From the NCBI GenBank assembly GCA_013141495.1, contig JABFQV010000008.1, positions 124,001 to 188,000 of the forward strand: DNA of 64,000 nucleotides. The letters are read 5' to 3'. Origin of the DNA: Methylotenera sp. GTDB lineage: Bacteria > Pseudomonadota > Gammaproteobacteria > Burkholderiales > Methylophilaceae. Shown here one piece after another: positions 28,792 to 50,243 of the stretch. Position numbers and translations under genes: made by a program. Under the pieces are notes generated by a model that saw nothing but the letters and a program-made list of their open reading frames with translations, was not told the DNA's origin and searched no databases. Positions within the stretch are counted from its first letter, which is position 1. Each line of letters starts with the position of its first letter.

Positions 28792-28795
28792 GCAC

Positions 28796-30225: not shown

Positions 30226-30240
30226 GCGTCAATTTACCGC

Positions 30241-33154: not shown

Positions 33155-33273
33155 GCTACAAACACCTAAACTTGGCGACATGGCTCGGTAATTACATTAT
33201 ATTTTTTATAGCTCAAACCAGCTAGCAGGCATACAATATGGCCATTATTACTAATCAACAAGGGAGTGTTCTG

Positions 33274-33714
33274 ATGAACAGAAGAGAGTTGTTATTGAGC
33301 GGTGTTGCGCTTGCCAGCGCAGCAATTGTTGGCAAAGTGCAAGCGGCAGACGGACACGAACATCATCACCAACACGGTGGTGCCGTGAATACTGACTTAA
33401 CTGCAGCTACATCGGATTGCATACAAAAAGGACAAGTTTGCCTGAGCCACTGCCTGACTTTGCTAGGGCAGGGCGACAAAGAGATGGCCGCCTGCGCACA
33501 AAGCGTAAATCAAATGCTGGCGGTATGTAGCGCATTGCAACAACTGGCCAGCCAAGAGTCACATTATTTAAAAAGTCAGGCCAAAATTGCCATGGATATT
33601 TGCAAAGAGTGTGAAGATGAATGTAAAAAACATGCGGATAAACATGATGCCTGTAAAGCGTGTATGGATAGTTGCGCTGCTTGTTATAAAGAATGTAAGA
33701 AAATAGCAGCTTAA
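33274..33714 (+). CDS. Csp1-like copper storage protein, Tat-exported
   Basis: 146 residues. ATG 33274 has AGGGAG seven bases upstream. The N-terminus MNRRELLLSGVALASAAIVG has the twin arginines and hydrophobic stretch of a Tat signal, cleaved near AQA/ADG, followed by His-rich HEHHHQHGG. The mature part is helical with 13 cysteines, many as CxxxC or CxxC (CKECEDEC, CKACMDSCAACYKEC). Csp1 of Methylosinus trichosporium is a Tat-exported four-helix bundle that stores up to 13 Cu(I) on 13 cysteines, and the count is the same here. It has its own gap and terminators on both sides. A role in buffering copper for oxidases is inferred. Confidence 0.87.
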   Translation: MNRRELLLSGVALASAAIVGKVQAADGHEHHHQHGGAVNTDLTAATSDCIQKGQVCLSHCLTLLGQGDKEMAACAQSVNQMLAVCSALQQLASQESHYLKSQAKIAMDICKECEDECKKHADKHDACKACMDSCAACYKECKKIAA

Positions 33715-33811: not shown

Positions 33812-33826
33812 GCGACAATATGTCAC
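33812..33826. promoter_or_regulatory. RegA/RegR-like box 4 (TonB/CobN operon)
   Basis: GCGACAATATGTCAC lies 60 bases upstream of the first receptor start codon and downstream of the Csp1 terminator. It shares GNGAC-A-N4-GTCRC with the boxes at 30.1-30.3 kb. Confidence 0.6.
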
Positions 33827-33885: not shown

Positions 33886-36090
33886 ATGGTTAAGAAAATA
33901 GCTTTGTTTTTAGTGTTGGTTGGCAATAGCGGTATGTTGATGGCAGAGGTAGGGGAAGAAAGCTCAAATGCACAGGCACAACAAACTTCATATACAGAAA
34001 GAAAAACTGTAGAAACTAATTTATCTGAATCAGAAGTGTCTGAATCAGATGGCTTGAGTCTTAAGGGGATATCAATTTTGGGTAACGCTGATTTAATCGA
34101 GGAAGCTCGAGAAAAATCCGTGCTAGGTGGGGTAAGTTTAGATAAACCAATGGCAGGTTCGGTACTATACCGTGAAGAATTAGAGCTGATTAAATCAGTC
34201 AACTCATTAACTGACTTACTTACTAGAGTGCCTGGCGTTTCAAAAACCCGCAATATGCGTATTGCCGATGGCGGTAAAAACTATACCGATAACCGCGTAA
34301 ATGGTATGCGTGTAAGCCGTACCGGTGTTGTTGGTTTTGTTGATGAAACCAATACAGCCGATATTGATCGCATTGAATTTATCAATGGTCCAGGATCTGT
34401 ATTACAAAGTAGTTACGCCATTGGCGGTACGATTAACGTTATTACAAAAACGCCCCCTGAAACGCCGGAGTTAAGAGTGTCGCAAGAGTTCGGCGGACAT
34501 GATCTTTATCGCACAGAAGTGGTGGGTGGCGCCAAGCTCAGTAATGGTTTTGGTTTTACAGGAAATGTCAGCATAAAACGCGATAAAGGCTGGCGCGACC
34601 GCTCTAGTGATGACAAAGATGCCTTTAGTTTTAGCTTGGCCGGCCAACCTACAGAACGTAGCAATTTAATGTTTAGGCTAGAGTACATTGATGATGACGC
34701 GCTTTATCCAGGTACGTTGACAGAAGCGCAATGGAAAAAAGATTGGCGTCAGGCGCAACCTGGCGTTTACGGACGTGGACAAACAACCTATTTAACACCT
34801 TCATTACATTTTAAGCAGGTATTGGGAGAAAGTGGAGAGATCACGCTAGGCTTGTCGCAACGTAAGCAATCTGATACCACCTTTGGCAATACCAGCACAT
34901 TTATCGCTTTTGCAAATTCCATTAGTGTGTCTGAAGAAACAGATACCAGCTTTCAAGCGATTTATAGACAAGATTTTGATTTAGCTAAATCTAGGCTTTA
35001 TGTCGGTTTTGAGATGATTCGTGGTGAAACGGATAGCAAGCAATATAACAATGTTTACAGCATTGCACTTGCGCTGTTAGGAAATTTTAAAAAAGGGGCA
35101 TTAAGTACATCAGGCTATAACACCACAACAGATACGCATGAGTCACCTTTTGTTAATTATGAATTTTCACCTTTAGATAAATTGAGGATTCATGCAGGTT
35201 TGCGCGCAGATCACATCCGTTTTTCTGTGGATGATAAAACCGCCGCCAATAAAGATGGCAAGGCTTCCTTTAGCAAAGTTGTACCAAAAATTGGCGCAAC
35301 GTTTGAGCTAGACCCCAATAATTTGATTTGGACAAGTTATGCCGAAGGCTTTTTAGCGCCAGCAGTCAATACCTTATTGGGCAGTGGCGATATTGGCTGT
35401 AAAACAGCCGGATGTGCCGGCGGAAAAAGAGGCTATGTGCCGGCTGCCAATTTAAATCCAGAAGCTATGAAAACTTACGAGCTAGGGTTTCGTGGTTATT
35501 TGAACAATGCTAAGTTACGTTACGATGTTACCTTGTACAAAACAAATATTATTGACATGGTGCTGCAGCGTGACTGTACTGCGGCAGAAAAACTAGGCCC
35601 TAATGGGTGTTACCGCATGAATGTAAATGGTGAGGTTTCTGCAAAAGGGATTGAAACTGGCTTGTCATACGCCGCGACTTCATGGCTAGATGTGGGGGTT
35701 TCACATACACTCGCTTATACCTCTTATGAAAAATATAAGTCTGGCACTGTTAATTACACGGGTAATTCATACAACTCTACGCCTAAGCATCATTTGAATG
35801 CACGTTTGTTATTTAAACCAGCCCCAGGCTGGCGCTCTGAACTAGAGATGGATGTAGAAAGTAAATACTATCTTGATAGTGCTAATACAGAAACTTACGA
35901 CAGACCTAATCTGTACAATCTACGCACCAGTTACACGGCACCTGCAGAGCAATGGTCAGCTTGGCTGCATGTGCTTAATCTTACAGACGTGAAGTATGGA
36001 CATCGATTGTCGCTTTCAGGAACGACTCGTCAATATACCAGTGGTTACATGCCGTTGACTTTGCGCGCTGGCGTTGCTTATAACTTCTAG
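33886..36090 (+). CDS. TonB-dependent outer-membrane receptor 1
   Basis: 734 residues from ATG 33886 (GGGG eight bases upstream). An upstream in-frame ATG at 33820 would place the RegA-like box inside the gene. Signal peptide about 1-21. The plug domain (about 75-190) has SLTDLLTRVPGVSKTR, DIDRIEFINGPGSVL and GGTINVITKTP. A 22-strand barrel follows, ending in aromatic F (AYNF). There is no N-terminal STN signalling domain. A CKTAGC loop near 504-509 and the RDC...NGC pair may form external disulfides. The ligand is unknown. The context with a CobN/HmuS-like protein suggests a metallo-tetrapyrrole. Confidence 0.88.
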   Translation: MVKKIALFLVLVGNSGMLMAEVGEESSNAQAQQTSYTERKTVETNLSESEVSESDGLSLKGISILGNADLIEEAREKSVLGGVSLDKPMAGSVLYREELELIKSVNSLTDLLTRVPGVSKTRNMRIADGGKNYTDNRVNGMRVSRTGVVGFVDETNTADIDRIEFINGPGSVLQSSYAIGGTINVITKTPPETPELRVSQEFGGHDLYRTEVVGGAKLSNGFGFTGNVSIKRDKGWRDRSSDDKDAFSFSLAGQPTERSNLMFRLEYIDDDALYPGTLTEAQWKKDWRQAQPGVYGRGQTTYLTPSLHFKQVLGESGEITLGLSQRKQSDTTFGNTSTFIAFANSISVSEETDTSFQAIYRQDFDLAKSRLYVGFEMIRGETDSKQYNNVYSIALALLGNFKKGALSTSGYNTTTDTHESPFVNYEFSPLDKLRIHAGLRADHIRFSVDDKTAANKDGKASFSKVVPKIGATFELDPNNLIWTSYAEGFLAPAVNTLLGSGDIGCKTAGCAGGKRGYVPAANLNPEAMKTYELGFRGYLNNAKLRYDVTLYKTNIIDMVLQRDCTAAEKLGPNGCYRMNVNGEVSAKGIETGLSYAATSWLDVGVSHTLAYTSYEKYKSGTVNYTGNSYNSTPKHHLNARLLFKPAPGWRSELEMDVESKYYLDSANTETYDRPNLYNLRTSYTAPAEQWSAWLHVLNLTDVKYGHRLSLSGTTRQYTSGYMPLTLRAGVAYNF

Positions 36091-36187
36091 ACGGTTTTTT
36101 AAAATAGTGTTGCTTGCTTAGCCTGTTAAATGATACGGCTTAGCAGGCAGACTGCACTAAGAATGATAGCGTTTAGGATGGTTTAAA

Positions 36188-38338
36188 ATGGCGTGTTTGA
36201 AAAACTGGTTAGCATGTTTGACATTAGGTATGTTGGCTTTTTCAGCACGCGCTACTGATCACGAAAAATTACTACCTGCGCAAATTGTATTGCCTGATAT
36301 TTCCGTGAATGCAAAAAAAGATGCATTGTCAGATCAACGTATTTCAAATACGCAAAAGCAAGTGTTTGATCGCAAAGAGATTGAGAACTTAGGGGTTATG
36401 ACGATTGGTGAAGTATTAACTAAGTTACCTGGTATTGATGCTGGTTTAGCTAACGGCGATGGATCTCCCACACCAAGAGCGCGAGGGATGTCGCGGGATT
36501 CGGTTGATATTCGAGTGGATGGGGAGCGCCCAGCGGGAGGGTCACGTATTGTTTCAGGCGTGATCGGCCGCTTGCCTGTGGGCGATCTTGAGCGAGTCGA
36601 GATTCTACGAGGGTCTTCTGCTGAGTATGGTGGTTCAGCATCGGTCACGATAAATTTGGTCATGAAAAAAGCCCTGCCAAAAAAATCAACCGCAGTGAAA
36701 GCTGCACTTGGCCTTAATGACACCACGCCCACGGGGCAATTTACCTTAACGCAAACGGGCGGTGAAGGCGGTTTTTCTTGGTCATTACCTGTGACGCTGA
36801 ACCTGCATCGCGCACCAAGCGAACGTAAAATCAACCGTGAAACTACGGTGGCTGGTATCAGGACTTTATGGGAGCAAGAGCGTGATGATGGCTTTCAGAC
36901 TTTTCGGGAGTTTGTGATTACACCTCGGATGACTTGGAAAAGCGGTCGCGATAGTTTAACAATTTCACCATTATTATTTGATGGCTTACGCAGGCGTGAG
37001 AACGATACAAATTTATTTGCGTTTACCAACCCAGTTGATGGCACAGGTTTTATAAATGATGGCGAACGATCTAGCTATGAAAGAAATCATCGTCAACTAA
37101 TGCGGCTTAGGGCAGAGGCTGAAAAGTATTTTAACGATGCGAAACTTTCAGGACGTGTTGCGTTGAATCATGGTGAAAACTCAGCAAATTTAGTGCGCAA
37201 TTCATACGATGTGAGTCATGTGCTCACCAAGACTTTAGAACGCTCGAAGAATATTGAAAATGAGGTTAACACCGCCCTGCGATGGGATCAGCCTATTGAC
37301 TTACATTTTTTATCGGCTGGTGCCGAGTATGTGCGCTTATCTCGACACGATAATCAGGATTTTGGCGGCAGTTTTGTTGCCAATAACCAGCATGAGGCTT
37401 CGCAAAGTGAGGGTGTTTTATGGTTGCAGGATGCATGGAGTCCAGAAGACGCCTTGACTCTGACCACAGGTCTGCGTGCTGAAAGTATGCGTATGAGTGC
37501 CGATGGTGTTTCGCAACAGCGCACAGGCTGGCTACCTTCGATTGCTGTGCGCTGGGAGCCTCTAGATAGCTGGGTGGTTCGGTCATCACTTGGTGCGGGG
37601 TTGAAAATGCCAAGGCTCGATGAAATTAGCAATGCAACCTCCCGCAGCATCGCAGTAAATACACCTGTTGAAGCCGACCGTCGTGGCAACCCTGATTTAA
37701 AGCCTGAGCGCAGTGTGAATTTTGAGGTGGTGCTTGAACGATATTTAGCAAAAGACGCTGGTTCGATAGGGGCTAATCTCTACGTGCGATCAACTCAAGA
37801 CTTTACCGAGCGCCGTATTTTACAAGAAGGCGTGCGTTGGATTGATAGACCCTACAATGTGGGTGATGCCCTGCATTGGGGGGTGGAGTTTGACGGCAAA
37901 GTGAAAATGGATGATTTTGGGTGGAAAGGTGCAACGGTTAAAGCACATTTGACGCTGCCACGTGCACAAGTTAACGATAACTTTCTTGATATACGTCGGA
38001 TGGCAAAAGATACACCACGGTATGTATTGTCTATGGGTTTAGATCAAAGCCTGCCAAAACTACGGTCTAGTTACGGTGTTTCTGTCCAACTGTCAGGAAG
38101 AAGCGAAACCGCAGTGCCGACAGAACAATACGGTTTTACTGAGTCACGGTTATTGCTAGATGCTTATTGGTTATACAAATTATCGCCACAGTTTAATTTA
38201 CGCATATCAGGAAAAAATTTACTTGCATCCGATAACAACCGCAATAGTCAGTATATTTCAGGTGCCGATGCTTGGCTGTCGAATACCAATGATACGGGCT
38301 ATCGCAATTTGCTGGTGACTTTAGAGGGGCGTTGGTAA
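36188..38338 (+). CDS. TonB-dependent outer-membrane receptor 2
   Basis: 716 residues with signal peptide about 1-22 (AFSARA). IVLPDISVNA near residue 40 is a candidate TonB box. The plug shows TIGEVLTKLPGID, DLERVEILRGSSAEYGG and SVTINLVMKK. The barrel ends in LLVTLEGRW. It differs clearly from receptor 1, so it is not a recent duplicate and may take a different ligand or form of the same ligand. The CobN-like gene begins immediately after its stop codon, tying its role to that protein. Confidence 0.88.
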   Translation: MACLKNWLACLTLGMLAFSARATDHEKLLPAQIVLPDISVNAKKDALSDQRISNTQKQVFDRKEIENLGVMTIGEVLTKLPGIDAGLANGDGSPTPRARGMSRDSVDIRVDGERPAGGSRIVSGVIGRLPVGDLERVEILRGSSAEYGGSASVTINLVMKKALPKKSTAVKAALGLNDTTPTGQFTLTQTGGEGGFSWSLPVTLNLHRAPSERKINRETTVAGIRTLWEQERDDGFQTFREFVITPRMTWKSGRDSLTISPLLFDGLRRRENDTNLFAFTNPVDGTGFINDGERSSYERNHRQLMRLRAEAEKYFNDAKLSGRVALNHGENSANLVRNSYDVSHVLTKTLERSKNIENEVNTALRWDQPIDLHFLSAGAEYVRLSRHDNQDFGGSFVANNQHEASQSEGVLWLQDAWSPEDALTLTTGLRAESMRMSADGVSQQRTGWLPSIAVRWEPLDSWVVRSSLGAGLKMPRLDEISNATSRSIAVNTPVEADRRGNPDLKPERSVNFEVVLERYLAKDAGSIGANLYVRSTQDFTERRILQEGVRWIDRPYNVGDALHWGVEFDGKVKMDDFGWKGATVKAHLTLPRAQVNDNFLDIRRMAKDTPRYVLSMGLDQSLPKLRSSYGVSVQLSGRSETAVPTEQYGFTESRLLLDAYWLYKLSPQFNLRISGKNLLASDNNRNSQYISGADAWLSNTNDTGYRNLLVTLEGRW

Positions 38339-41300
38339 ATGAAGAATATCAATCAGATTAAATTTTCTTTAACGTGCCTCATACGATGGGTTGTTTGTGT
38401 GGTGATATTATTCTCGGCCAGCGTCGCTATGGCAGCGGATAAGGTGGCTTTGCTATCTACCAGCTTTGTACTTGAGCGCAAGTTCCAGCTGTTAGAACAG
38501 GCTGCCATAAAGCAAGGTATGGTGCTAGCCTGGGTGCAGGTAGATAAGGCAAGTGATGGTGACATTGCCAATGCGCTGAAGGGAGTAGGTTTAGTGATTA
38601 TTGATGCTCCCAGAAGTGATGACCAAGCGGTGATAGAGCGCTTCGCAGGAAAGTTGTTGCGTAATCTAACGCTACCTACAACTAGCATCAACACCATGAG
38701 CCAGCCAAGAACCAAAGCGGTTAATCAAGATGCCGCGACATCGCAACGCCTGTTTGAATACTACATAGCTGGCACGCAGGCTAATCATGAAAGGTTGTTT
38801 CAGTATATTAAGGTGTTATTACATGGGGGTGATTTAACGCAAGTACCGCCACCGATTGCATTGCCCAATGGCGGCATTTATCACCCTGCTTACAAGCAAG
38901 TAGTGTTTGATAACTTGCCAGATTATTTAACGTGGTGGGAAAAGCACGCAGGTAAGAGCACTCAACAGCGCCCAATCATTGGCATGGAAACCTCGTCTAG
39001 TTACTTATCTGACGGGCAAGCCAGAATGTTGGATGAAACCATTGCCGCCTTAGAAAAAGCAGGGGCTGTGCCTATTGTGTTTTATCGCTCTACTCGCTTA
39101 GCTAGAGCGCAAGCGGCACAGGCTAATCAAGAAAGTCAAGCACGCACAACTGAACAAGTGGTCACGCAGACTGGCCGTCCAGCAACTGCCACAACCACTG
39201 CGACAGTAACAGGTCGACCCGTCAGAAATCAGCCAACAGAAGATAACCCGCTCGGCTTTCCTAACCCAAAAGAAACGCAAAAAGTGGAAGTTAATGAGCC
39301 GTTAATCACGCAAAATGGCAAAGTGATTTTAAATGTGTTGCTGGTGAATACCTTTTTAGGGGGCAACCCAGATAGGCGTAAAGCCTGGCATCAGGCCATG
39401 GGCATTCCCGTCATCAATATACTTTCTTACCGTAGTGGAACACGCGCGGATTACATGAAGGACAACGCAGGCGTGAGCAGTTTTATGCTGCCTTTTACGC
39501 TGACCACCTCAGAATATATTGGGATGCAAGACCCCGTTTTATTGATGGTGAAAGAAGACGGTGAGCTAGTGACGATTCCTGAGCAAATGGACATGTTAGT
39601 TGGTAAGGCGATTAACCTAGCCAAGTTGCAAACTTTGCCGAATGAACAAAAAAAAGTGGCGCTGTTGTTTTGGAATCACCCACCAGGTGAGAAAAATCAA
39701 GGGGCCTCTAATATGAATGTGCCACGTTCAATTGAACATTTGGTGAATCAATTACGCGCTGAAGGGTACGTATTTGATACGGTGGACGAGCAACGCATGA
39801 TTGCCACAGTTGGGAAAATGTTAAGGCCAGCTTACCGTAAAGGCGGTTTGGTTGAGTTGATGCAAACGCCCCATTGGGATTTTTTACCCTTGGCAGAATA
39901 CAAGCGCTGGTATGCCACTTTGCCTGAATCGGTGAGGCGTGATGTTGAAAAAAGCTGGGGCGCGCCAGAAAGTAGTGCATCTATTGCCACAAAGAATGGT
40001 GTCAAAGGTTTCGTGATTCCACGCATGAAGTTGGGTAATTTAGTGGTGATGCCGCAACCCTCACGTGGCGAAATGGCCTCGGACGAAAAAGAGAAAAAAC
40101 TATTTCACGATACCAAAATGCCTTTGGGGCATAGCTACATGGCAGGTTATTTGTGGATACGCGAGCAGCTCAAAGCCGATGCGATTATTCACTTTGGTAC
40201 ACATGGCAGCCAAGAATGGTCGCCAGGTAAAGAGCGCGGCTTATGGGCGTTTGATTATCCAAACATTTTAGTGGGCAATGTGCCGATTATTTACCCCTAC
40301 ATTGTCGATAATATAGGCGAAGCTATTCACGTAAAGCGGCGTGGGCGAGGTGTGATTGTAAGCTACCAAACGCCAGCTTTTGCACCTGCGGGCTTGTCTG
40401 ATGATTTTGTTCAAATAAATGATTTGATTCGTGAGTATCAATCGCTAGATCAAGGCTTAGTCAAAGATAACAACCGCAAGTTGATTGCTGAGCAAGCGGT
40501 AAAGATGAACATTCATAAAGATTTAAATATTCAGGCGGCTGATTTAGAACGTGATTTTGATAAACACCTGCGTGATATTGAAGATTATTTAGAAGAATTA
40601 GGTTCAGCCCAGCAGCCATTAGGCTTGCACACGATGGGCAAAGATGCCGAGCAAGCGCATTTGGTAAGCAATGTGATGCAAATGCTCGGTCAACCCTTAT
40701 ACGATGCGCTGGGCATTAAAAATGCAAAAGCGTTGTTTCGCGATGATTATCGCAATTTAGCGCAAACAGCACCATATCAATTTGTATTAAAAAATGTATT
40801 TTCAGACAAACCTCTCAGTGAGATTGAAGACGCAAAATTACGCACGCTCGCAGAAAAAGGGCGTAAGTTTTTGGTTGATTTACATGCCAATTGGGAAACC
40901 GAAGCGGTTAGTTTAGGCTTATCTGCACGCTGGATAGACCCCTCTTACGGCGGAGACCCCATTCGTAACCCAGATGCGCTACATACAGGGCGCAATATGT
41001 ACGGGTTTGACCCCTCACGTGTGCCGACAAAAGCCGCTTATGAAGCGGGTAAGCAAGCGATGGAGCAACTGATTGTTTCGCATCAAGCAACGCATGGAAA
41101 ATTTCCAGAGAAACTGGCCTTTACCATGTGGAGTACTGAAACTATGCGCCATTTAGGGATGCTTGAAGCCGAGATTATGTTTGCCATGGGCGTGCGCCCG
41201 CAGTGGGATGAAGGTGGGCGCGTAATCGGCATGGAGGTGATTCCACAAAAAGAGTTGGGTCGTCCGCGCATCGACACGGTGATTTCACTTACTGGGCTTT

Positions 41301-42538
41301 ATCGTGACCAGTTTCCCAATGTGATGGAGCGCTTTAACGAGGCGATTGTGATGGTGGCCGCCATGGATGAGGAGGACAAATTTAATTTTGTGCGCGCCAA
41401 TACCACACGCATTAAGGCGCAGTTAATAAAGCAAGGTATTGCGCCAGAGCAGGCTGAAGAATTTGCATTAACCCGTGTTTTTGGTAACGAAAGCGGTGAT
41501 TACAGCACGCGGCTCACTAATGCATCGCTAGCTTCAGACCAATGGAGGGAGGGGGATGGTCAGTTAGAAAAACTTTATCTCGCGCGTATGTCTTGGGCTT
41601 ACGGGCCAAATACGGCTAATTGGAGTAAGAAGTTAGCCGACCCTTCAGGGCAAGAAATCAACGCGTATGCGGAACATTTAAAAGGCACCAGTGCCGCTGT
41701 GTTTTCGCGCTCATCCAACTTGAAAGGTTTATTGGATACCGATCATCCCTTTGAGTTTTTAGGGGGTATTTCTATGGCAGTACGCTATTTAGACGGTAAA
41801 AGCCCGCAACTTTATATTTCTAACATGCGCGACCCCAAACAAGCCAAGTTAGAAACCGCCGAAAAATTCATGGCTAAAGAGTTGCGCGCGGTATATCAGC
41901 ATCCGCACTGGATGGCTGAAATGCAAAAAGAAGGTTATTCAGGCACTTTGCAAATGCTCAATACCATCAATAATTTTTGGGGTTGGCAGGTGATGGATAG
42001 AAATATCGTACGCGATGATCAATGGCAAGAGTTTCACGAAACGTATGTGAAAGATCGCTACAAACTCGGTACACGGGAATGGTTTGAAAAATCCAACCCA
42101 ACCGCATTGGCGCAAATTGCTGAGCGTATGCTAGAGGCCATTCGTAAAGATTACTGGAAAGCCGATGAACAGACCAAACGTGAATTAGTGCAGGTTTACC
42201 AAGAGATTGCACAAAAACACGATGTGCATACGAATAATGAAACGTTTAAAGCGTATGTGAAAGAATTGTCAAAAGGCTATGGTGTTAATGTGCCATCTTC
42301 TACTAACGCGGCAAAACCAAAAGCCAGTGCAAAGGCAGCAACACAACAGCCTCAACTTCAAGAAAAAGCCAAACAGTTGCAACCCAAAGTGCCAGATGTT
42401 GTTCGTGGACAGGAAATGCGCGAAGTGGAACGCAAAAAACAATTAGACCAACTTATCTGGATATATGTTTGGATGATTATTGGGGTAGTATTGGCGGGTA
42501 TTGGCTATCAGGCATGGCGTACAAGGCGCGCTAATTAG
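38339..42538 (+). CDS. CobN/HmuS-like chelatase family protein, exported and membrane-anchored
   Basis: 1399 residues. The CobN/BchH/HmuS fold is shown by HFGTHGSQEWSPGKERG (about 618-634), PQWDEGGRVIGMEVIPQKEL followed by GRPRIDTVISLTG, FEFLGGISMAVRYLDGK and NPTALAQIAERMLEAIRK. It has an N-terminal signal (VVCVVILFSASVAMA, about 18-32) and a C-terminal helix (IYVWMIIGVVLAGIGY) ending RTRRAN, so the large domain should face the periplasm. Cytosolic CobN works with CobS/CobT ATPases, and neither gene is here. The arrangement recalls HmuS of Bacteroidetes, a CobN relative reported to remove iron from heme. A Thr/Gln-rich insertion lies at about 260-320. Substrate could be heme, a corrinoid or another metal chelate. 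Confidence 0.82.
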   Translation: MKNINQIKFSLTCLIRWVVCVVILFSASVAMAADKVALLSTSFVLERKFQLLEQAAIKQGMVLAWVQVDKASDGDIANALKGVGLVIIDAPRSDDQAVIERFAGKLLRNLTLPTTSINTMSQPRTKAVNQDAATSQRLFEYYIAGTQANHERLFQYIKVLLHGGDLTQVPPPIALPNGGIYHPAYKQVVFDNLPDYLTWWEKHAGKSTQQRPIIGMETSSSYLSDGQARMLDETIAALEKAGAVPIVFYRSTRLARAQAAQANQESQARTTEQVVTQTGRPATATTTATVTGRPVRNQPTEDNPLGFPNPKETQKVEVNEPLITQNGKVILNVLLVNTFLGGNPDRRKAWHQAMGIPVINILSYRSGTRADYMKDNAGVSSFMLPFTLTTSEYIGMQDPVLLMVKEDGELVTIPEQMDMLVGKAINLAKLQTLPNEQKKVALLFWNHPPGEKNQGASNMNVPRSIEHLVNQLRAEGYVFDTVDEQRMIATVGKMLRPAYRKGGLVELMQTPHWDFLPLAEYKRWYATLPESVRRDVEKSWGAPESSASIATKNGVKGFVIPRMKLGNLVVMPQPSRGEMASDEKEKKLFHDTKMPLGHSYMAGYLWIREQLKADAIIHFGTHGSQEWSPGKERGLWAFDYPNILVGNVPIIYPYIVDNIGEAIHVKRRGRGVIVSYQTPAFAPAGLSDDFVQINDLIREYQSLDQGLVKDNNRKLIAEQAVKMNIHKDLNIQAADLERDFDKHLRDIEDYLEELGSAQQPLGLHTMGKDAEQAHLVSNVMQMLGQPLYDALGIKNAKALFRDDYRNLAQTAPYQFVLKNVFSDKPLSEIEDAKLRTLAEKGRKFLVDLHANWETEAVSLGLSARWIDPSYGGDPIRNPDALHTGRNMYGFDPSRVPTKAAYEAGKQAMEQLIVSHQATHGKFPEKLAFTMWSTETMRHLGMLEAEIMFAMGVRPQWDEGGRVIGMEVIPQKELGRPRIDTVISLTGLYRDQFPNVMERFNEAIVMVAAMDEEDKFNFVRANTTRIKAQLIKQGIAPEQAEEFALTRVFGNESGDYSTRLTNASLASDQWREGDGQLEKLYLARMSWAYGPNTANWSKKLADPSGQEINAYAEHLKGTSAAVFSRSSNLKGLLDTDHPFEFLGGISMAVRYLDGKSPQLYISNMRDPKQAKLETAEKFMAKELRAVYQHPHWMAEMQKEGYSGTLQMLNTINNFWGWQVMDRNIVRDDQWQEFHETYVKDRYKLGTREWFEKSNPTALAQIAERMLEAIRKDYWKADEQTKRELVQVYQEIAQKHDVHTNNETFKAYVKELSKGYGVNVPSSTNAAKPKASAKAATQQPQLQEKAKQLQPKVPDVVRGQEMREVERKKQLDQLIWIYVWMIIGVVLAGIGYQAWRTRRAN

Positions 42539-42574
42539 GAATTTGGCAATATATTTAATGTAAAGGGGTAACGC

Positions 42575-43096
42575 GTGAACGCACTTGAAAGTTTGTTATA
42601 TGAAGTATCCAAATGGTTCTTAACACCAGTACTGGTAGTGCTTACACTCATGTTTATTTATGCACTGTTCGCATTTGGCATGTTGATGTTTGATGTAATT
42701 TTACGTTTGGTCAAAGGTCGCGGTATTTCACCCTTGCTGCAATTCGCGAAAAAAAATCCACACGCCAACCAAGAGACATTAGAGCTACATTTACTCAAGT
42801 TAATTGAGCCGCTACGCATTACCAGCCGCATTGCGCCGATGTTGGGGTTGGTGGCAACCATGATTCCCATGGGGCCAGCGTTGATAGCAGTTTCATCTGG
42901 CGATTCACAAGGCATTGCACAAAATCTGATTGTGGCGTTTTCAGCCGTTATCGTGGCTTTACTCGCTGCTGCTATCACCTACCTGGTGTTGTCGATTCGC
43001 CGCCGCTGGCTATTGCACGATTTAAATGAAATTCTCAGTAGTAAAATAGCCATTACAGTAGCACCTGATCACCGCGCAGGGGTGGTGCATGGCTGA
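42575..43096 (+). CDS. MotA/TolQ/ExbB-family proton channel subunit of the chelatase module
   Basis: 173 residues from GTG 42575 with AAAGGGG seven bases upstream. Three membrane helices are visible (about 15-40, 88-110, 118-142). TSRIAPMLGLVATMIPMGPA is the ExbB/TolQ core. It is shorter than the true ExbB encoded later in the operon and overlaps the DUF2149 gene by eight bases. The same pair occurs beside CobN-like genes in methanogens and in hmu loci of Bacteroidetes, as I recall. It therefore probably energises or anchors the CobN-like protein rather than TonB. Confidence 0.8.
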   Translation: MNALESLLYEVSKWFLTPVLVVLTLMFIYALFAFGMLMFDVILRLVKGRGISPLLQFAKKNPHANQETLELHLLKLIEPLRITSRIAPMLGLVATMIPMGPALIAVSSGDSQGIAQNLIVAFSAVIVALLAAAITYLVLSIRRRWLLHDLNEILSSKIAITVAPDHRAGVVHG

Positions 43097-43427
43097 CCGT
43101 AAACCACTTAATATTTTAGATGACGACGATGGCGATGATCCGATTCTTTCGGTCGTGAATATTATTGATGTATTTTTAGTCATTATCGCTGTGTTGCTGA
43201 TTGCAGTGATGGAGAATCCACTCAATCCATTTGCTATGCAGGATGCAGTAGTGATTAAAAATCCTGGTAAAGAAAATATGGAAATGCTGGTGAAGCAAGG
43301 CAAGGAGCTTAAACAATATAAATCTTCAGGAAAAATTGGGGAGGGTCAGGGGGCAAAAGCTGGAACGGCTTATCGCCTAAAAGATGGCTCTATGATATAC
43401 GTGCCAGAAGGAGATTCTGTAGATTGA
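43089..43427 (+). CDS. DUF2149 protein (ExbD-like partner)
   Basis: 112 residues. One N-terminal membrane helix (VVNIIDVFLVIIAVLLIAVM, about 22-41) carries an aspartate, D27, in the position of the ExbD channel Asp. A periplasmic part follows with NPGKENMEMLVKQG and GTAYRLKDGSMIYVPEG, the signature I recognise for DUF2149. It overlaps both neighbours, which implies tight co-translation with the ExbB-like protein. No enzymatic role is known. Confidence 0.82.
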   Translation: MADRKPLNILDDDDGDDPILSVVNIIDVFLVIIAVLLIAVMENPLNPFAMQDAVVIKNPGKENMEMLVKQGKELKQYKSSGKIGEGQGAKAGTAYRLKDGSMIYVPEGDSVD

Positions 43428-44107
43428 AGGCCACGCTAACTCAACAGCCTATTGATAAATTTATAGCCTTGCTCCTTGTTTTGGTGCTGCACGGCGCATT
43501 GTTCTACGCAGCCATGAGCTATAAGCTCATTCCGCCGCCACAAGAGGCGGTGACTTTGTTTGTTCATTTAATAAACCCAGTACCTCCTAAAAAAGAAGAG
43601 CCCCCACCACCAAAACCACCCAAACCGCTGCCACCGAAACAGGTAACACTGGTGAAAGAGAGGCCAATTCTGCGGCCAGAACCAGTTCCAGTGTTAGTGG
43701 CGGAAACACCGGTCACGCAGGTGACAGACTACGTGGCGCCTGCACCTCCGCCAGTGCCTGTGGTTGAAGCCCCACCTGCGCCAGAACCTGAACCTGTGGC
43801 TCCAGCCAAACCGACTGGACCCATTACACTAACTTCAGATTTATCTTTGACTTGTCCGCAACGCACGTTACCAAACTACCCGGCGGCATCACGTCGTGCG
43901 GGAGAGCATGGGCGGGTAGTGTTGCGAGTAGAGTTAGATGAGGCTGGGCAAATTACTGGAGTAAAAGTAAAAGAGAGCTCGGGTCATAAAAGGTTAGATG
44001 AGGCTGGGCTAGCGGCAGTTAAAACATGGCAGTGTGATGCTGCCATGCGTGACGGCAAAGCGGTACGTGCGGTTGCGATGCAACCATTTGATTTTATTTT
44101 AAATTGA
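43424..44107 (+). CDS. tonB: TonB energy transducer
   Basis: 227 residues from a TTG start that overlaps the DUF2149 stop (TTGA). The first ATG comes after the membrane helix and is unsuitable. Residues about 10-30 form the inner-membrane anchor (LLLVLVLHGALFYAAMSY) with the functional His-18-like residue in VLHGA. A Pro/Glu/Lys-rich spacer (about 45-135) crosses the periplasm. The TonB C-terminal domain follows (about 145-227, YPAASRRAGEHGRVVLRVEL and WQC). It should energise the two receptors in the same operon. Confidence 0.92.
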   Translation: MKATLTQQPIDKFIALLLVLVLHGALFYAAMSYKLIPPPQEAVTLFVHLINPVPPKKEEPPPPKPPKPLPPKQVTLVKERPILRPEPVPVLVAETPVTQVTDYVAPAPPPVPVVEAPPAPEPEPVAPAKPTGPITLTSDLSLTCPQRTLPNYPAASRRAGEHGRVVLRVELDEAGQITGVKVKESSGHKRLDEAGLAAVKTWQCDAAMRDGKAVRAVAMQPFDFILN

Positions 44108-44130
44108 TGTAACTTTAGAGGTGGTTTGAA

Positions 44131-44844
44131 ATGTCACATGATTTAGGTGTTGCGCATTTTGTTGCGCAGATTGATACGGTAGGAAAAGTGGTATTGGTGT
44201 TTTTGCTCATTCTTTCAATAGCCACTTGGTATTTGGTGTTTACCAAAGGGTTGGCTAATTGGTTAGAGGCAAGGCGTGCCAAGGTGTTTCTGGATAAACT
44301 TTGGCAACAACCTTCTATTGATGACTTAAATACAGGCTTGAAGAAAAATAAGCCGGATAATGCTTTTGCAATACTCGCGGCAGAAGGCTTGGCGGCAACC
44401 CGTCATGCCAGTGGTTATGACGTGCAAAAGCTGGTGGCCGTTGGCGGTATATCCGAGTTTATGACACGAGCTATTCGCAATGGTATTGATCAGGAGTCTG
44501 CACGCTGTGAGAATGGCTTAACGGTACTGGCATCAGCGGGTTCTGCATCGCCCTATATTGGTTTATTTGGCACGGTATGGGCAATTTATCATGCTTTGGT
44601 GAATATTGGGATTTCAGGCCAAGGCACGCTAGATAAGGTGGCAGGTCCAGTAGGTGAGGCGTTGATCATGACTGCAATCGGTTTGGCTGTGGCGATTCCT
44701 GCAGTGTTTGCATACAACGCTTTTAATCGTCGTAACCGTATGTGGCTGGCTAAACTTGATGCCTTTGCGCATGATTTATTTGTACTACTTACGGTGGGCA
44801 ATGCTCCTGATGAATCCAATAAAACGTCTGGAAGTGCATCGTGA
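44131..44844 (+). CDS. exbB: TonB-system proton channel ExbB
   Basis: 237 residues with three membrane helices and the family core ASAGSASPYIGLFGTVWAIYH plus GPVGEALIMTAIGLAVAIPA. It forms the proton-driven motor with ExbD and TonB in the inner membrane. The C-terminal stop overlaps the exbD start. Its length and sequence are those of ordinary ExbB, unlike the smaller channel encoded upstream. Confidence 0.94.
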   Translation: MSHDLGVAHFVAQIDTVGKVVLVFLLILSIATWYLVFTKGLANWLEARRAKVFLDKLWQQPSIDDLNTGLKKNKPDNAFAILAAEGLAATRHASGYDVQKLVAVGGISEFMTRAIRNGIDQESARCENGLTVLASAGSASPYIGLFGTVWAIYHALVNIGISGQGTLDKVAGPVGEALIMTAIGLAVAIPAVFAYNAFNRRNRMWLAKLDAFAHDLFVLLTVGNAPDESNKTSGSAS

Positions 44845-45257
44845 GTTTCGGCAGCTTTAACTCACAGCAACATCAAGCAAAGGCCGAAATCAACGTGGTG
44901 CCATTGGTAGATGTGATGCTGGTATTGCTGGTGATATTTATCATTACCGCGCCATTACTCACACATTCAGTCAAAATCGACTTACCTAAAGCTTCCAGTA
45001 ACCCCAATATTACCAAGCCAGAACATATTGAATTTGCTATACGTGAAGACGGCAGTTTGTATTGGAATGGTGTGTTGACGCCAAAAGAAACGTTAGTGGC
45101 GCGCTTTGCATTAGAAGCAAAAAAAGATCCGCAACCTGAACTGCATATTCGTGCTGATAGATTAGTGCATTATGAAAAAGTGGCGCAGGTGATGTCAGAT
45201 GCGGCAAAAACAGGGTTAGTACGTATCGGGTTTGTGACTGAGCCTGCGAGTAACTAG
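44841..45257 (+). CDS. exbD: TonB-system ExbD
   Basis: 138 residues from a GTG start in a GTGA overlap with exbB. A single membrane helix (about 20-42) contains the essential aspartate in NVVPLVDVMLVLLVIFIITA. A periplasmic domain follows with HIRADRLVHYEKVAQVMSDA. It completes the TonB-ExbB-ExbD motor of this operon. Confidence 0.94.
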   Translation: MSFGSFNSQQHQAKAEINVVPLVDVMLVLLVIFIITAPLLTHSVKIDLPKASSNPNITKPEHIEFAIREDGSLYWNGVLTPKETLVARFALEAKKDPQPELHIRADRLVHYEKVAQVMSDAAKTGLVRIGFVTEPASN

Positions 45258-45335
45258 ACTGTTAGTGAGCGGGGCTACTTGAGTTTGGCAAAGATTTAAC
45301 AATCCGCTATATTCACCATTGGTACTGTAACTATT

Positions 45336-46016
45336 ATGACAATGATATTCCACTCATTTAAATATAGCGCTTTGCTAAGTGCGTTATTATTTACAAGTAA
45401 TACCATGGCAGCCGAGTCAATTGACTCGCAGCCTACTTCATTGTGCCAGATCGCGAAAGTTCAAGATGGAAATGTTACTGTCGCACTATTGTGGCAGCAG
45501 TTATTTGATGACGGTGCGCATGATTTAGCTATGGCTTTGCCGCGTGTGGGCTCACCTTTAGACGTCAAGCGAGTGACTTTTGGCGGTTTGACAACGTCCA
45601 ACTGCCACTATCCGTCGTTAGCTTTAGCACGTGGTGGAGATTGGGGTTGGCATTTGGCTTGGGTCGTAGCGGGGAGCGCTACTCTAAGTTATGCACGTAT
45701 GGATGGCGAGGCTTGGGTATCTTCACCCACCAAAAAGCTTAGCAAAAATGCTCAGTTAGCAGGACAGCCTGTGATTCTTAGTTGGGAGCACCAAGTATGG
45801 ATTGTTTGGCAAGTGTCTGATGGGCAAGATGCGAGCTTGTTTGCAGTGTTCTCTGCTGATGAAGGACGTTCTTGGCAGGAGGCTAAGTTAGTTGCAAAGA
45901 TTCCTGTCAACAGAGCGCAAAGTAAACTGAGTAAGTTACAGTTAGTCGTTAAAGAACAAAAGCCATATTTAAGTTGGGGTGATGCAACGGAATTGGTGCC
46001 ATTATTTACTTGGTAA
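45336..46016 (+). CDS. Unknown exported protein with a BNR-like repeat
   Basis: 226 residues with a signal peptide (about 1-25, NTMAAES). FSADEGRSWQEAKLV matches one BNR/Asp-box repeat (SxDxGxxW), and LAWVVAGSATLSY and VWIVWQVSDG look like other blades of a small beta-propeller. Two cysteines (near 37 and 88) could form a disulfide. It follows exbD by 78 bases on the same strand and is probably the last gene of the operon. It may bind or present the ligand in the periplasm, which is a guess. No known family was recognised. Confidence 0.65.
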   Translation: MTMIFHSFKYSALLSALLFTSNTMAAESIDSQPTSLCQIAKVQDGNVTVALLWQQLFDDGAHDLAMALPRVGSPLDVKRVTFGGLTTSNCHYPSLALARGGDWGWHLAWVVAGSATLSYARMDGEAWVSSPTKKLSKNAQLAGQPVILSWEHQVWIVWQVSDGQDASLFAVFSADEGRSWQEAKLVAKIPVNRAQSKLSKLQLVVKEQKPYLSWGDATELVPLFTW

Positions 46017-46025
46017 AAACACTTA

Positions 46026-46685
46026 CTAATTGCACCACACTTTAGTGTTATGCGTTAGATCCATCCAAATTGCCCATGCGCTGGCGCCACTGAGTAGTAA
46101 GCCTGCTAAGCGCATGCCATAGGGTTCTACTGCTTTTGTTTTGAGTTTAAGCCACAGCCAAGGCGCTAAAAATAAAGAGGCGCTGGAACCCACTGCAAAA
46201 GCCGCCATACTGACTGCACCATCAAGTGGGTTGCCATTGAATGATGCAATAATCAACGCGGAATATAACAAACCGCATGGCATTAGCGCCCATAACATGC
46301 CGATATAAAAATGACCGCCTTGCTTTACGCTGAGTTTTTTTACATGGCCCCAAATGTTGCGCCCAGCGCGGTCAACCCAAATCGGTTGGCGGGCTAAAAC
46401 CAGTAGCAAAACACCCCAAAAAAAGATTAACACATGAAAAAAGGTCCAAAGCGGGTGTAGCACGGCACTGTAACTTGAAACCCAAGCAATGCTTTGTATG
46501 GCAAAAGTAGCAATTGCGCCCAGCGTGGCATAGCCACACAGACGCCCTAGGTGATAAAGATAGATGCCGTAAGGCTGCTGGGGTGACTGTGTTAATGCGG
46601 TGCAAGCCGCACCGCACATAGCTACGCAGTGAGGGCCGCCAGCTAAGCCCATGATGAGGGCGCTGTAGGTGAGCGCAGATTGCAT
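46026..46685 (-). CDS. SafE/DsbD-like membrane protein of the cbb3 cluster
   Basis: 219 residues, six or seven membrane helices. The N-terminal GLAGGPHCVAMCGAAC is the signature of the TauE/SafE-annotated (DsbD-like, UreH-like) proteins that accompany ccoGH in many proteobacteria. The Cys/His/Met residues could handle copper for cbb3 assembly. It starts three bases after the preceding small gene's stop. It is convergent with the TonB operon, with only nine bases between stops. Confidence 0.78.
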   Translation of the reverse strand: MQSALTYSALIMGLAGGPHCVAMCGAACTALTQSPQQPYGIYLYHLGRLCGYATLGAIATFAIQSIAWVSSYSAVLHPLWTFFHVLIFFWGVLLLVLARQPIWVDRAGRNIWGHVKKLSVKQGGHFYIGMLWALMPCGLLYSALIIASFNGNPLDGAVSMAAFAVGSSASLFLAPWLWLKLKTKAVEPYGMRLAGLLLSGASAWAIWMDLTHNTKVWCN

Positions 46686-46688
46686 GGT

Positions 46689-46949
46689 TTATTGTTTATT
46701 CACACCCGTGGCTGCGTGGTTGCGTGCGCGTCCGGCAGGTTCCAGCGAATTTTTTTGATCCACTGTTAATGACTTGGTGACATTGCCTGAATTTTCTTCA
46801 TGGGCTAGCACTGGGTCCTGACCATTCACGGCGATATATACCGTGGTTAAGCTGGCAACGACGACTATTGCCGGACCTGTAAAAACCAGCCAGGCATAGC
46901 CTGATTTCCACCATTTAGGTTTTTGATTAGAGGGTTGATTGTTTGCCAT
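46689..46949 (-). CDS. FixH/CcoH-like small membrane protein
   Basis: 86 residues with one membrane helix (about 19-41). KPKWWKSGYAWLVFTGPAIVVV resembles the membrane anchor of FixH/CcoH, and the position between ccoG and the SafE-like gene is where ccoH is expected. The periplasmic part is much shorter than in typical FixH, so it may be a reduced version. CcoH supports cbb3 oxidase assembly. Confidence 0.65.
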   Translation of the reverse strand: MANNQPSNQKPKWWKSGYAWLVFTGPAIVVVASLTTVYIAVNGQDPVLAHEENSGNVTKSLTVDQKNSLEPAGRARNHAATGVNKQ

Positions 46950-46959
46950 AACTTAACCT

Positions 46960-48396
46960 TTAGCGTGACATATAAAAAATTGATTTTTCAGAAATCTCGG
47001 CATGCGTGCTGGCGGCTTCAATTTCAAACTCAATCGGATGTGAACCACTCTTGATCGAGCCGTCTTCAATTTGCAAGCTCACTGCAACCATGCGCGACTC
47101 AGCAGGGTTCACGGTAAATTCCTTATCCGATGCTATGGATAAGCCTTTGATGCCTTCTATCGAAATACGATAGGTTTCCTGTTTCTCTGAGGCATTGGTA
47201 ATTTGCAGCCGATATACGTTTTCAACTTTACCACCAGCGACTAAGCGTGACATTACGCCTCGATCACGAATAACATCAACCTTGAATGCTACCTGAGTAG
47301 CCAGCGAGTAAACAAGACCAGCACTCATGAATAACAATAAGCCACTATAAATAAGCACACGCGGGCGCAAGATCTTCCGAATCACTTGATGTTGCGTCCA
47401 GTGCTGGGTGAGAGCGTTTTGAGTTGAAAAACGGATTAAACCACGTGGGTATTCCATTTTATCCATGATGCTGTTGCAGGCATCCACACATAACCCGCAG
47501 CTAATACATTCGTACTGCAAGCCGTTACGAATATCAATGCCTGTTGGGCAAACTTGTACACAAAAGCTACAATCAATGCAGTCACCTAAACCTGATTGTT
47601 TGGCATCGACTTTACGAGAGCGACCACTACGCGGTTCCCCGCGTTCTTCATCATAAGTAACTATGAGGGTGTCGTTGTCAAACATAGCACTTTGAAAGCG
47701 CGCATACGGGCACATGTGTTTGCAGATTTGCTCACGCAAAAAGCCTGCATTGCCATAGGTGGCAAATCCGTAAAAGCAGATCCAGAAAGTTTCCCATGGG
47801 CTTAAGTTAAATAGTGAAATGTTGTGAATGAGGTCACGTATCGGGGTGAAGTAACCTAAGAAAGTAAAGCCGGTCCACATTGAAAAGCTAATCCACGCTA
47901 AATGTTTAAGCCATTTTTTGTAGAACTTTTTTAACCCAAACTTCATGTTATCTAAACGCATACGCGCGGCGCGGTCGCCCTCAACCTTGCGTTCAATCCA
48001 TAAAAATATTTCGGTATAAACTGATTGTGGGCAGGCGAAGCCACACCAGAGCCTGCCAGCAACTGCAGTGAACAAGAAAAGCGCTAACGCTGCGATAATT
48101 AAAATGATAACTAGGTAAATTAAATCTTGTGGATAAAGCACCAAGCCAAAAATATAGAAGCGATGCGTGCTGATGTCGAGTAATACAGCTTGGCGCTCGC
48201 CCCACTGAAGCCATGGCACACCATAGAACACAATTTGTGTAATCCAAATCATGGCCCAGCGCCAGTTTTTGTAAAAGCCAGAGATGTTGCGAGGGTATAT
48301 TTTTTGATGCGCTTCGTAGAGTGATACCGATTTTACGGTTGTAGTGTCACTGGCGATAGGAATGACTTTTTTCGACTTTTGTTTCTGATTAGGCAC
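46960..48396 (-). CDS. ccoG: cbb3 oxidase accessory ferredoxin-like protein CcoG
   Basis: 478 residues if GTG 48396 is used. A TTG at 48438 would add 14 residues but has no ribosome-binding site and abuts a hairpin. Membrane helices lie at about 35-60, 85-110 and further on. Two 4Fe-4S motifs are seen: CIDCSFCVQVCP and CISCGLCVDAC. GFACPQSVYTE and a C-terminal Ig-like periplasmic domain match CcoG (FixG/RdxA). CcoG reduces Cu(II) for cbb3 oxidase assembly. Confidence 0.93.
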   Translation of the reverse strand: MPNQKQKSKKVIPIASDTTTVKSVSLYEAHQKIYPRNISGFYKNWRWAMIWITQIVFYGVPWLQWGERQAVLLDISTHRFYIFGLVLYPQDLIYLVIILIIAALALFLFTAVAGRLWCGFACPQSVYTEIFLWIERKVEGDRAARMRLDNMKFGLKKFYKKWLKHLAWISFSMWTGFTFLGYFTPIRDLIHNISLFNLSPWETFWICFYGFATYGNAGFLREQICKHMCPYARFQSAMFDNDTLIVTYDEERGEPRSGRSRKVDAKQSGLGDCIDCSFCVQVCPTGIDIRNGLQYECISCGLCVDACNSIMDKMEYPRGLIRFSTQNALTQHWTQHQVIRKILRPRVLIYSGLLLFMSAGLVYSLATQVAFKVDVIRDRGVMSRLVAGGKVENVYRLQITNASEKQETYRISIEGIKGLSIASDKEFTVNPAESRMVAVSLQIEDGSIKSGSHPIEFEIEAASTHAEISEKSIFYMSR

Positions 48397-48439
48397 TTGT
48401 TTTAAGACCTTGCATAAAGGTGACGCATAAATAGACAAT

Positions 48440-48472
48440 GCCCGATATTTTTACATGTGCAAAATATCGGGC
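48440..48472. terminator. 12-bp perfect hairpin between ccoP and ccoG
   Basis: GCCCGATATTTT and AAAATATCGGGC pair perfectly around a 9-base loop. On the minus strand no T-run follows, so it may attenuate or protect the ccoNOQP mRNA end rather than stop transcription fully. Confidence 0.5.
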
Positions 48473-48543
48473 TTTACGTAATGATGAGATTATGCAATCT
48501 GCATTAAAGTTTCACACCAGCAATCAATTAAATAATGCTCTAT

Positions 48544-49455: not shown

Positions 49456-49595
49456 TCTTCATCTCCCTCAAGCGGCAATCTTGCCGCCTCATCAAAATCT
49501 TTTTTATGCCGCCCAGACCATGCCCACACCCAAATGCCGACAAAGGTCACCAAAGCGGCAACGGTTGCTATGCTACGTAAATCAGTAATATCCAT
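49452..49595 (-). CDS. ccoQ: cbb3-type cytochrome oxidase subunit CcoQ
   Basis: 47 residues (ATG 49595, TGA 49452-49454), starting MDITDLRSIATVAALVTF. One membrane helix is followed by GRHKKDFDEAARLPLEGDEE, the typical CcoQ tail. It stabilises the cbb3 complex. The stop overlaps the ccoP start (ATGA), and the ccoO stop lies nine bases upstream of its start. Confidence 0.92.
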   Translation of the reverse strand: MDITDLRSIATVAALVTFVGIWVWAWSGRHKKDFDEAARLPLEGDEE

Positions 49596-49604
49596 ATTGT
49601 GCGC

Positions 49605-50231
49605 TTACTGTTTAAGCGCTGTACCCAGCACTTGTAAATAAGCAATCACGGCTTCCATTTCAGTTTTGCCATAAACATCATTGGCCGCATTTTTGATTTC
49701 TTCATCTGTATATGGCACACCTGCGATTTTTAATGCACGTAGGTGAGCTGGCATTTTTTCTGCGTTTACCAGATTTTTTTCTAACCACGGATAACCAGGC
49801 ATCACAGATTCTGGCACTAAATCACGTGGGTTAATTAAGTGAATACGGTGCCATTCGTCGCTGTAACGTTCGCCAACACGTGCCAAATCAGGTCCGGTAC
49901 GCTTGCTGCCCCATTGAAATGGATGATCAAACACTGATTCGCCAGCCACTGAGTAATGCCCATAACGCAGGGTTTCAGCTTTAAACGGGCGGATCATTTG
50001 TGAATGGCAGTTGTAGCAACCTTCACGCAGGTAAATATCGCGCCCCGCTTGCTGCAATGCTGTGTAAGGTTTTAAGCCTTCAATCGGTTGTGTTGTTGAT
50101 TTTTGAAAAAACAACGGCACGATTTCAACCAAACCACCGAACGAAACCACTACTAAAATCAACACGATCATCAAGAAACTGTTGGTTTCAATCTTCTCGT
50201 GCGTAAATCCTTTTTTCTCATTATTTGCCAT
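49605..50231 (-). CDS. ccoO: cbb3-type cytochrome c oxidase subunit II (monoheme)
   Basis: 208 residues with one N-terminal membrane helix (about 17-38) and a single heme c motif [12 protein letters not shown] (about 73-84). VMPGYPWL supplies the likely axial Met. CcoO relays electrons within the cbb3 complex. It lies 12 bases downstream of ccoN. Confidence 0.96.
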
Positions 50232-50243
50232 TTTTATGATCCT

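Follow-up and report, generated by a model that had tools for sequence, protein, structure and literature searches.

The systems closest to the locus reported here, a nine-gene operon around a gene for a CobN-family, HmuS-like chelatase in a 64,000-nucleotide stretch of Methylotenera sp. (assembly GCA_013141495.1, contig JABFQV010000008.1, positions 124,001 to 188,000; "the window" hereafter), have been described in Bacteroidota, Pseudomonas and Bordetella. The hmuYRSTUV operon already combines receptor, CobN-like, ExbB-like and DUF2149 genes, as the first-pass annotation of the window had noted, HmuS carries membrane regions at its two ends, and HmuV is given as without homology to any known family (P. 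gingivalis HmuS paper). Membrane-anchored periplasmic CobN relatives are also in print. In Pseudomonas aeruginosa, PA1922-PA1925 form the same four-gene core, with a TonB receptor, a CobN-like protein, a proton channel protein annotated as ExbD and DUF2149, and are Zur-regulated (PMC4542158, PMC9431628); this likeness is drawn from gene descriptions only, not from sequences. The four-gene core of the window operon is not new, being known from hmuYRSTUV and PA1922-PA1925.

As for copper, CruR, which belongs to the DUF2946 family, senses copper as a nascent chain and thereby governs a TonB receptor operon in Bordetella (PMC9426467); CrtA, the receptor of the CruR operon, is a copper importer for respiratory oxidases (PMC12914433). 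These operons have a CruR leader before the TonB receptor, as do relatives of the window operon, and sometimes ExbBD-TonB and PCuAC. They differ from the window operon by a PepSY_TM gene, and 'CobN' is absent from the main texts of both papers. Little is known about how bacteria, once a copper or zinc chelate has reached the periplasm, free the metal from it, or about what powers HmuS-type de-chelatases. CobN and BchH/ChlH, which have their fold and an HxGxHG-type motif in common with the window chelatase, are cytoplasmic and have ATPase partners.

The window operon consists of nine tightly packed open reading frames (ORFs) on the plus strand (Table 1), all found in the ORF list, and the proposed spacing of overlaps or gaps below 100 bases holds. 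The largest gap, 97 bases, lies between the two receptor genes; the others measure 0 (receptor 2/chelatase), 36 (chelatase/ExbB-like), 23 (TonB/ExbB) and 78 bases (ExbD/ninth gene), with overlaps of 8 bases for ExbB-like/DUF2149 and 4 each for DUF2149/TonB and ExbB/ExbD. Pfam confirms the families of the first eight products. The ninth had been called BNR-like: its ORF is present and its best model is PSII_BNR, but at E 0.0078, below the cut-off, with no Pfam family at E 0.001 and no match among 74 other sequences searched. Rfam and tRNA scans of the window gave 0 matches, and a promoter scan gave 16 sites against 24.8 in shuffles.

Like the Hmu operon, the window operon encodes a receptor, an end-anchored CobN-family protein, an ExbB-like protein and DUF2149, and the cavity residues His538, His1209 and Glu1212 (HmuS numbering) are common to both. 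It differs by an extra receptor and a TonB-ExbB-ExbD set, and by having neither HmuY nor HmuT. Both of these are present in L166, L167 and L176 (with a hypothetical protein in the HmuT position); HmuT of Bacteroides finegoldii matches no Pfam family at E 1.

We propose that the operon is a HmuRSUV-like metal-acquisition system, most likely for copper, with an ExbB-like/DUF2149 channel coupled to the chelatase; for this explanation as a whole we see about an even chance. The two TonB-dependent receptors, driven by the operon's own TonB-ExbB-ExbD, would bring a metal chelate in as far as the periplasm. There the CobN-family protein, anchored at the inner membrane, would take the chelate into its cavity, with His622 facing His1136 as in HmuS, and would strip the metal from it rather than insert one. 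The ExbB-like and DUF2149 proteins would form a second ExbBD-type proton channel acting together with the chelatase. In the role of the absent ATPase, this channel might transfer protons or force a change of conformation. The copper would be supplied to cbb3-type and other copper enzymes. Among the matches listed from the open-licence literature, none links a CobN-family protein to copper acquisition and none proposes a proton-driven chelatase. With its copper link, its separate TonB motor and its chelatase-linked ExbB-like/DUF2149 pair, an HmuS-like operon of free-living proteobacteria would make both metal release and its energy source genetically testable, and a gene set now labelled cobaltochelatase would gain a working meaning.

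Table 1. Features of the operon and its surroundings, in window coordinates.
Feature	Coordinates	Strand	Evidence
TonB-dependent receptor 1	33886..36090	+	Open frame from 33820; PF00593/PF07715
TonB-dependent receptor 2	36188..38338	+	PF00593/PF07715
CobN-family HmuS-like chelatase, 1399 residues, hydrophobic segments at both termini	38339..42538	+	CobN-Mg_chel E 1.8e-292
HFGTHG motif, residues 618-623; His622 = HmuS His538	40190..40207	+	Alignment
DHPFEFLGG motif, residues 1135-1143; His1136, Glu1139 = HmuS His1209, Glu1212	41741..41767	+	Alignment
C-terminal hydrophobic segment of chelatase, residues 1372-1390	42452..42508	+	Hydropathy
ExbB-like (HmuU-like) protein	42575..43096	+	Pfam MotA_ExbB 2e-5, weak yet above cut-off; hhalign
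DUF2149 (HmuV-like) protein, Asp27 in predicted transmembrane helix	43089..43427	+	Pfam DUF2149 9e-30
TonB	43424..44107	+	Pfam TonB_C
ExbB/TolQ	44131..44844	+	Pfam ExbB
ExbD/TolR	44841..45257	+	Pfam ExbD
Small exported protein, BNR-like	45336..46016	+	No family at E 0.001
Palindrome GCGACAATATGTCAC, about 60 bases before receptor 1; putative RegA/PrrA-like site	33812..33826	.	Inference
Csp1-like copper storage protein, separate unit	33238..33714	+	E 2.8e-19 to Csp1
RegA/PrrA-like regulator and RegB/PrrB-like kinase genes	28228..30109	-	Best NCBIfam models, both below cut-offs
DsbD_2 protein and cbb3 oxidase genes (weak FixH-like, CcoG/FixG, CcoP, CcoO, CcoN)	46026..51677	-	Context

The genes for CobN, ExbB-like and DUF2149 are conserved together as a module. 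DUF2149 was matched in 21 of 369 genomes of the class, and 20 of these have CobN and ExbB-like in the same locus; the remaining match is below the family cut-off and belongs to an ordinary ExbB-ExbD pair. On plasmids, DUF2149 occurs in 11 records, and in 10 of these (8 of 10 fetched) the coordinates put a CobN-family match no more than about 4 kb away; the 12.6-kb stretch covered for Paracoccus alcaliphilus has none. Among the rows of the tree described below, 62 of the 64 in the module clade have DUF2149 no further than 5 kb from CobN, versus 0/8 CobN and 0/5 BchH rows (0/13 in all). Because DUF2149 was the query that yielded L025-L042 and the reason for including some plasmid loci, rows from the CobN query alone were counted separately, and gave 37 of 39 loci; L043 stops at a contig edge and L152 has no DUF2149. 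ExbB-like is near CobN in 63/64 module rows, an upper bound because its profile also matches ordinary ExbB. The suggested association of the ExbB-like/DUF2149 pair with the chelatase is thus upheld, in that the genes travel together. At L152:4146-12271, two CobN-family genes adjoin each other and DUF2149 is absent; one of the two groups with CobN, and the other stands alone on a long branch beside the module clade.

In terms of family, NCBIfam NF004644 ('cobaltochelatase subunit CobN') matches the window protein at 1721 bits against a cut-off of 1248. Its best solved relative by sequence is HmuS (9d26, 448 bits), followed by ChlH (4zhj, 358) and CobN (7c6o, 352). We modelled residues 106-1300 with AlphaFold2 (32 sequences; predicted local distance difference test, pLDDT, 88.6; predicted template modelling score, pTM, 0.88), and Foldseek also placed 9d26 first by E value (1.9e-73, against 1.1e-70 for 7c6o and 1.5e-62 for ChlH). 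The order by template modelling score differs, with CobN slightly ahead of HmuS (0.80 vs 0.77).

A tree of 77 rows splits the 64 module-clade rows from 5 BchH and 8 CobN rows (Shimodaira-Hasegawa-like approximate likelihood ratio test, SH-aLRT, 99), and the window protein falls inside a 14-row clade (SH-aLRT 100). The three Bacteroidota HmuS rows are at the base of the 64-row group, in an unresolved fork. This is a quick LG+G4 tree, for which the program flags the letter composition of many rows. The 13 CobN/BchH rows are comparators chosen out of many matches, labelled by tree position or, for L173, L174 and L175, by record annotation. Partial or short rows were omitted (L048, L052, L057, L129, L092), and 7 of the 89 CobN-profile matches are shorter than 900 residues and unaligned (pieces of L027, L028, L050, L058, L128). 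L050, L052, L057 and L058 were assigned to the window clade by identity, not by the tree. The kinship to HmuS that the first-pass annotation had proposed stands, by sequence and by Foldseek E value, and the window protein does not fall inside cobaltochelatase CobN; its tree position and its adjacent ExbB-like and DUF2149 genes place it with the BtuS/HmuS-like module.

Hydropathy gives two hydrophobic segments in the chelatase, at residues 13-31 and 1372-1390. The same check on the end regions of five CobN/BchH comparators gave none in 4 and a single weak one in 1. Positive residues follow the C-terminal segment, so the body of the protein is expected to be periplasmic with both ends held in the inner membrane, which fits the signal peptide, C-terminal anchor and periplasmic body predicted earlier.

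According to the cryo-electron microscopy paper, His538 and His1209/Glu1212 of HmuS face each other across the cavity. Their equivalents are kept in 14/14 members of the window clade, and His506 and Ser1014 likewise. At the heme ligand position His254, the window has Leu340 and all 14 members have Leu. Because His254 is absent, the window protein is not HmuS in the strict sense, and HmuS proper was ruled out. In the same clade the Phe502 position is Lys or Glu, that of Trp1202 is Arg, Lys or His, and that of Gln299 is Phe or Met, with Met also in 1/3 HmuS rows. The position of the heme ligand Met79 is Val in the window, on a weakly aligned stretch (6.6 bits). Methionine density does not decide on a methionine-rich insertion, since the three Bacteroidota copies reach 9, 25 and 8 Met per 100 residues, against at most 9 in the window.

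The 1209/1212 pair varies among the 64 module rows: His-Glu in 24, Asp-Gln in 25, Asp-Asp in 13, and Asp-Glu and Asp-Gly in 1 each. His-Glu is confined to HmuS, the window clade, its sister clade and L030. In the comparators, CobN has Asp-Gln in 6/8 rows, and BchH has His-Asp in 3/5, that is, His at 1209 with Asp, not Glu, at 1212.

Copper is the most likely metal and is better supported than heme, judging from the surroundings of the operon in its relatives. Upstream context was counted where 250 bases or more could be seen ahead of the receptor, which holds for 15 window-clade loci; L047, L048, L054, L055 and L128 fall outside this set, their upstream DNA not being visible. A DUF2946 gene precedes the receptor in 7 (L043, L044, L045, L049, L052, L053, L057), the palindrome GTGACA-N3-TGTCAC with up to 2 mismatches in 5 (window, L031, L050, L056, L127), and neither in 3 (L046, L051, L058). 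In L047 the palindrome is at the contig end. Among nine DUF2946 copies, three confirmed by Pfam and the rest by a custom profile, the motifs of copper-sensing CruR are found, CxxC in 9/9 and RAPP in 7/9. From the DUF2946 stop to the first ATG there are 125-197 bases in 6/7 loci, and 162 in Bordetella.

In the seventh locus, L057, PCuAC lies between DUF2946 and the receptor; in L031 it lies nearby, together with a RegA-like gene named by eye. A PCuAC match by custom profile is also found at 11942-12493 of the window. Copper is further suggested in the window by the Csp1-like storage protein gene just upstream of the operon and the cbb3 oxidase genes downstream of it. Neither window receptor is recognisable as OprC- or CrtA-type by sequence: for receptor 1 the PDB matches are weak, the best being PqqU/YncD, and the copper receptor CrtA (9rvq) is matched at E 6.6e-7 with no single stretch passing alone. 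CrtA was not matched at E 0.001 by the one CruR-led receptor tested, that of L057. A second TonB receptor of the Methylotenera genome, led by DUF2946, is located outside the window (L196:3-1947).

The box positions relative to gene starts were judged from open frames, and the Zur, Fur and CopR-type search patterns are what we take to be their consensus. The palindrome is found within 300 bases upstream of the receptor in one third of the clade loci (5/15), versus 68 among 20000 pieces drawn at random from other loci, which are unmatched for intergenic DNA. GYGACA-N3-TGTCAC occurs exactly at four sites of the genome: one ahead of receptor 1, one ahead of the cytochrome genes at 30348, one ahead of a second ccoN and one within a gene. 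It was read at first as the site of a copper regulator. This was set aside for a RegA/PrrA/RoxR site, which fits better because RegA/RegB-like genes adjoin the palindrome and the palindrome precedes ccoN. Its form, too, suggests that it may be a RegA/PrrA site; the RegA-type consensus sequences given in two papers agree with it in part only. At 28228-33094 the RegB/RegA-like genes diverge from two membrane proteins whose sole Pfam matches are C-terminal cytochrome c domains, with copies of the palindrome in between at 30137 and 30211 (2 mismatches each) and 30241 (exact).

With regard to the ExbB-like/DUF2149 pair, hhalign aligns ExbB-like with ExbB at probability 97.6 over 87 columns. The N-terminal helix of DUF2149 has Asn in 68/68 sequences and Asp in 67/68, with Glu in the remaining one, and in the predicted structure, a low-confidence model (pTM 0.28), a single helix at 18-41 is followed by short strands. 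hhalign places this Asp on the transmembrane Asp of ExbD, over 19 columns at probability 40 and P 3e-4. The score of 26.7 was reached by 0/100 column-shuffled ExbD alignments (best 25.4), and DUF2149 scores 10.6 against TonB, 13.5 against ExbB and 15.5 against ExbB-like. As the helix Asp is near-invariant, as in ExbD, a dedicated proton motor for the chelatase is plausible. The weak DUF2149/ExbD match is no more than compatible with a proton-driven chelatase.

The pair could instead energise the TonB receptors, the chelatase needing no proton power, a possibility that we take seriously and still consider doubtful. The EMBO J paper draws HmuU and HmuV in this way, as powering the receptor, and the ExbB-like protein is a clear ExbB relative. 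The window operon, however, already holds a complete TonB-ExbB-ExbD set, and of 67 DUF2149 loci, window included, 14 have a TonB gene and 11 have one for ExbD. CobN has DUF2149 within 5 kb more often than a receptor within 8 kb (56/64 module rows for the latter). Methanosarcina acetivorans, which has no outer membrane, matches both the DUF2149 and the CobN families, each taken by itself, in control searches. A heme de-chelatase as in Bacteroidota, taking iron from imported heme, is unlikely. HmuS is the closest solved relative, and the clade retains throughout the Glu and the two histidines proposed as axial, but His254, Phe502 and Trp1202 are replaced, as is Met79 on its weak stretch, the HmuY and HmuT genes are not in the operon, and copper-sensing leaders stand upstream in 7/15 relatives. 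The heme or corrin substrate considered earlier is not favoured, given the absent His254 and the copper-pointing neighbourhood of close relatives. Zinc uptake under zinc limitation, like that of PA1922-PA1925, has still less to recommend it. Its P. aeruginosa counterpart is Zur-regulated, and the sister clade of the window has Zur-like boxes in 5/6 loci, at 0, 1, 1, 2 and 2 mismatches; a background of 1.76 Mb holds 0 exact matches, 4 at one mismatch and 45 at two, so the two boxes at 2 mismatches count for little. In the window, 30000-46500 has no Zur-like box at 0-1 mismatch, and CruR or the palindrome is found instead in 12/15 window-clade loci. A cobaltochelatase, or another metal-inserting enzyme of corrin synthesis, is very improbable. 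The NF004644 name would suit it, as would a 12-row branch with GRHS that sits among genes read by eye as cobalamin genes. Against it are the N-terminal hydrophobic segment, the Asp at 1209 in 7/8 CobN rows, unlike the window His, and the gene content of the genome (2.49 Mb, 99.99% complete), which has one CobN-family gene, one DUF2149 gene and two TP_methylase genes only. The reported lack of cobT extends to the genome, where CobT has no match (CobS, ChlI and ChlD were not searched genome-wide). A plain cobaltochelatase was ruled out by the missing CobT, the two TP_methylase genes (one family tested) and the tree position.

Several observations weigh against the copper and proton-motor explanation itself. 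The EMBO J drawing and the Zur-like boxes of the sister clade have been mentioned, and the latter suggest that metal use may shift easily. The window operon has no CruR of its own, the genome's one DUF2946 gene preceding another receptor. Csp1 adjoins the operon in the window only, and a terminator-like palindrome seen in the sequence at about 33745-33771 separates the two. At one mismatch the palindrome occurs 11 and 15 times on the two strands of the genome, where the reversed control gives 5 and 6, a modest, roughly twofold excess. The L058 receptor is preceded by ECF-sigma (extracytoplasmic function sigma factor)/FecR genes, which usually go with iron. As for DUF2149, the match to ExbD is that single 19-column helix, a fold search with the low-confidence model gave no match at E 0.001, a PDB profile search ranked TolR below unrelated proteins, at no better than E 1.5, and no ExbD likeness was seen in its outer part by profile or fold search. 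The N. europaea copy of the chelatase gene (L050:9926-14024) is split into three ORFs and thus probably broken; the L047 and L127 copies are intact. In 12 further genomes from the family of the window organism no copy reaches E 1e-200, which makes the system accessory.

Other branches of the module have other neighbours. The 12-row branch (L033-L042, L163, L164) has mostly GRHS for GTHG, keeps ExbB-like and DUF2149, and sits among apparent cobalamin synthesis genes, named by eye. The Trichlorobacter copy is on a plasmid, between cobalamin clusters, and a role as a classical CobN was already questioned by the authors who described it (PMC3403914). The Runella slithyformis copy (L171:1098-9132) lies between hypF and hypC, within a hydrogenase-maturation cluster, and is a possible nickel branch. 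L171 also has a protein weakly matching DsbD_2 and NicO, both below cut-off.

More broadly, CobN, ExbB-like and DUF2149 might form a proton-driven periplasmic metal-stripping machine, in which the chelatase would replace TonB on an ExbBD-type motor. Each branch would owe its metal to its operon and to the pair of residues facing the conserved histidine (His-Glu, Asp-Gln or Asp-Asp): iron for hmu, copper for the window clade with CruR, zinc for the Zur-box clade and PA1922-25, cobalt for the cobalamin-linked branch and nickel for the Runella copy. We offer this wider picture tentatively and think it rather improbable in full.

Lastly, in Methylococcaceae (L054:996-5990 and L046:4734-9869) proteins resembling DUF4198 (below cut-off) and DsbD_2 are encoded between receptor and chelatase, and Methylomonas L054 additionally has a BadF/BcrA-type ATPase and a 4Fe-4S protein there. 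HmuS is described as NADH-dependent. The L054 ATPase, 4Fe-4S and DsbD_2 proteins would suit reductive metal release, and the inserted genes of both loci are a possible electron path to the periplasm.

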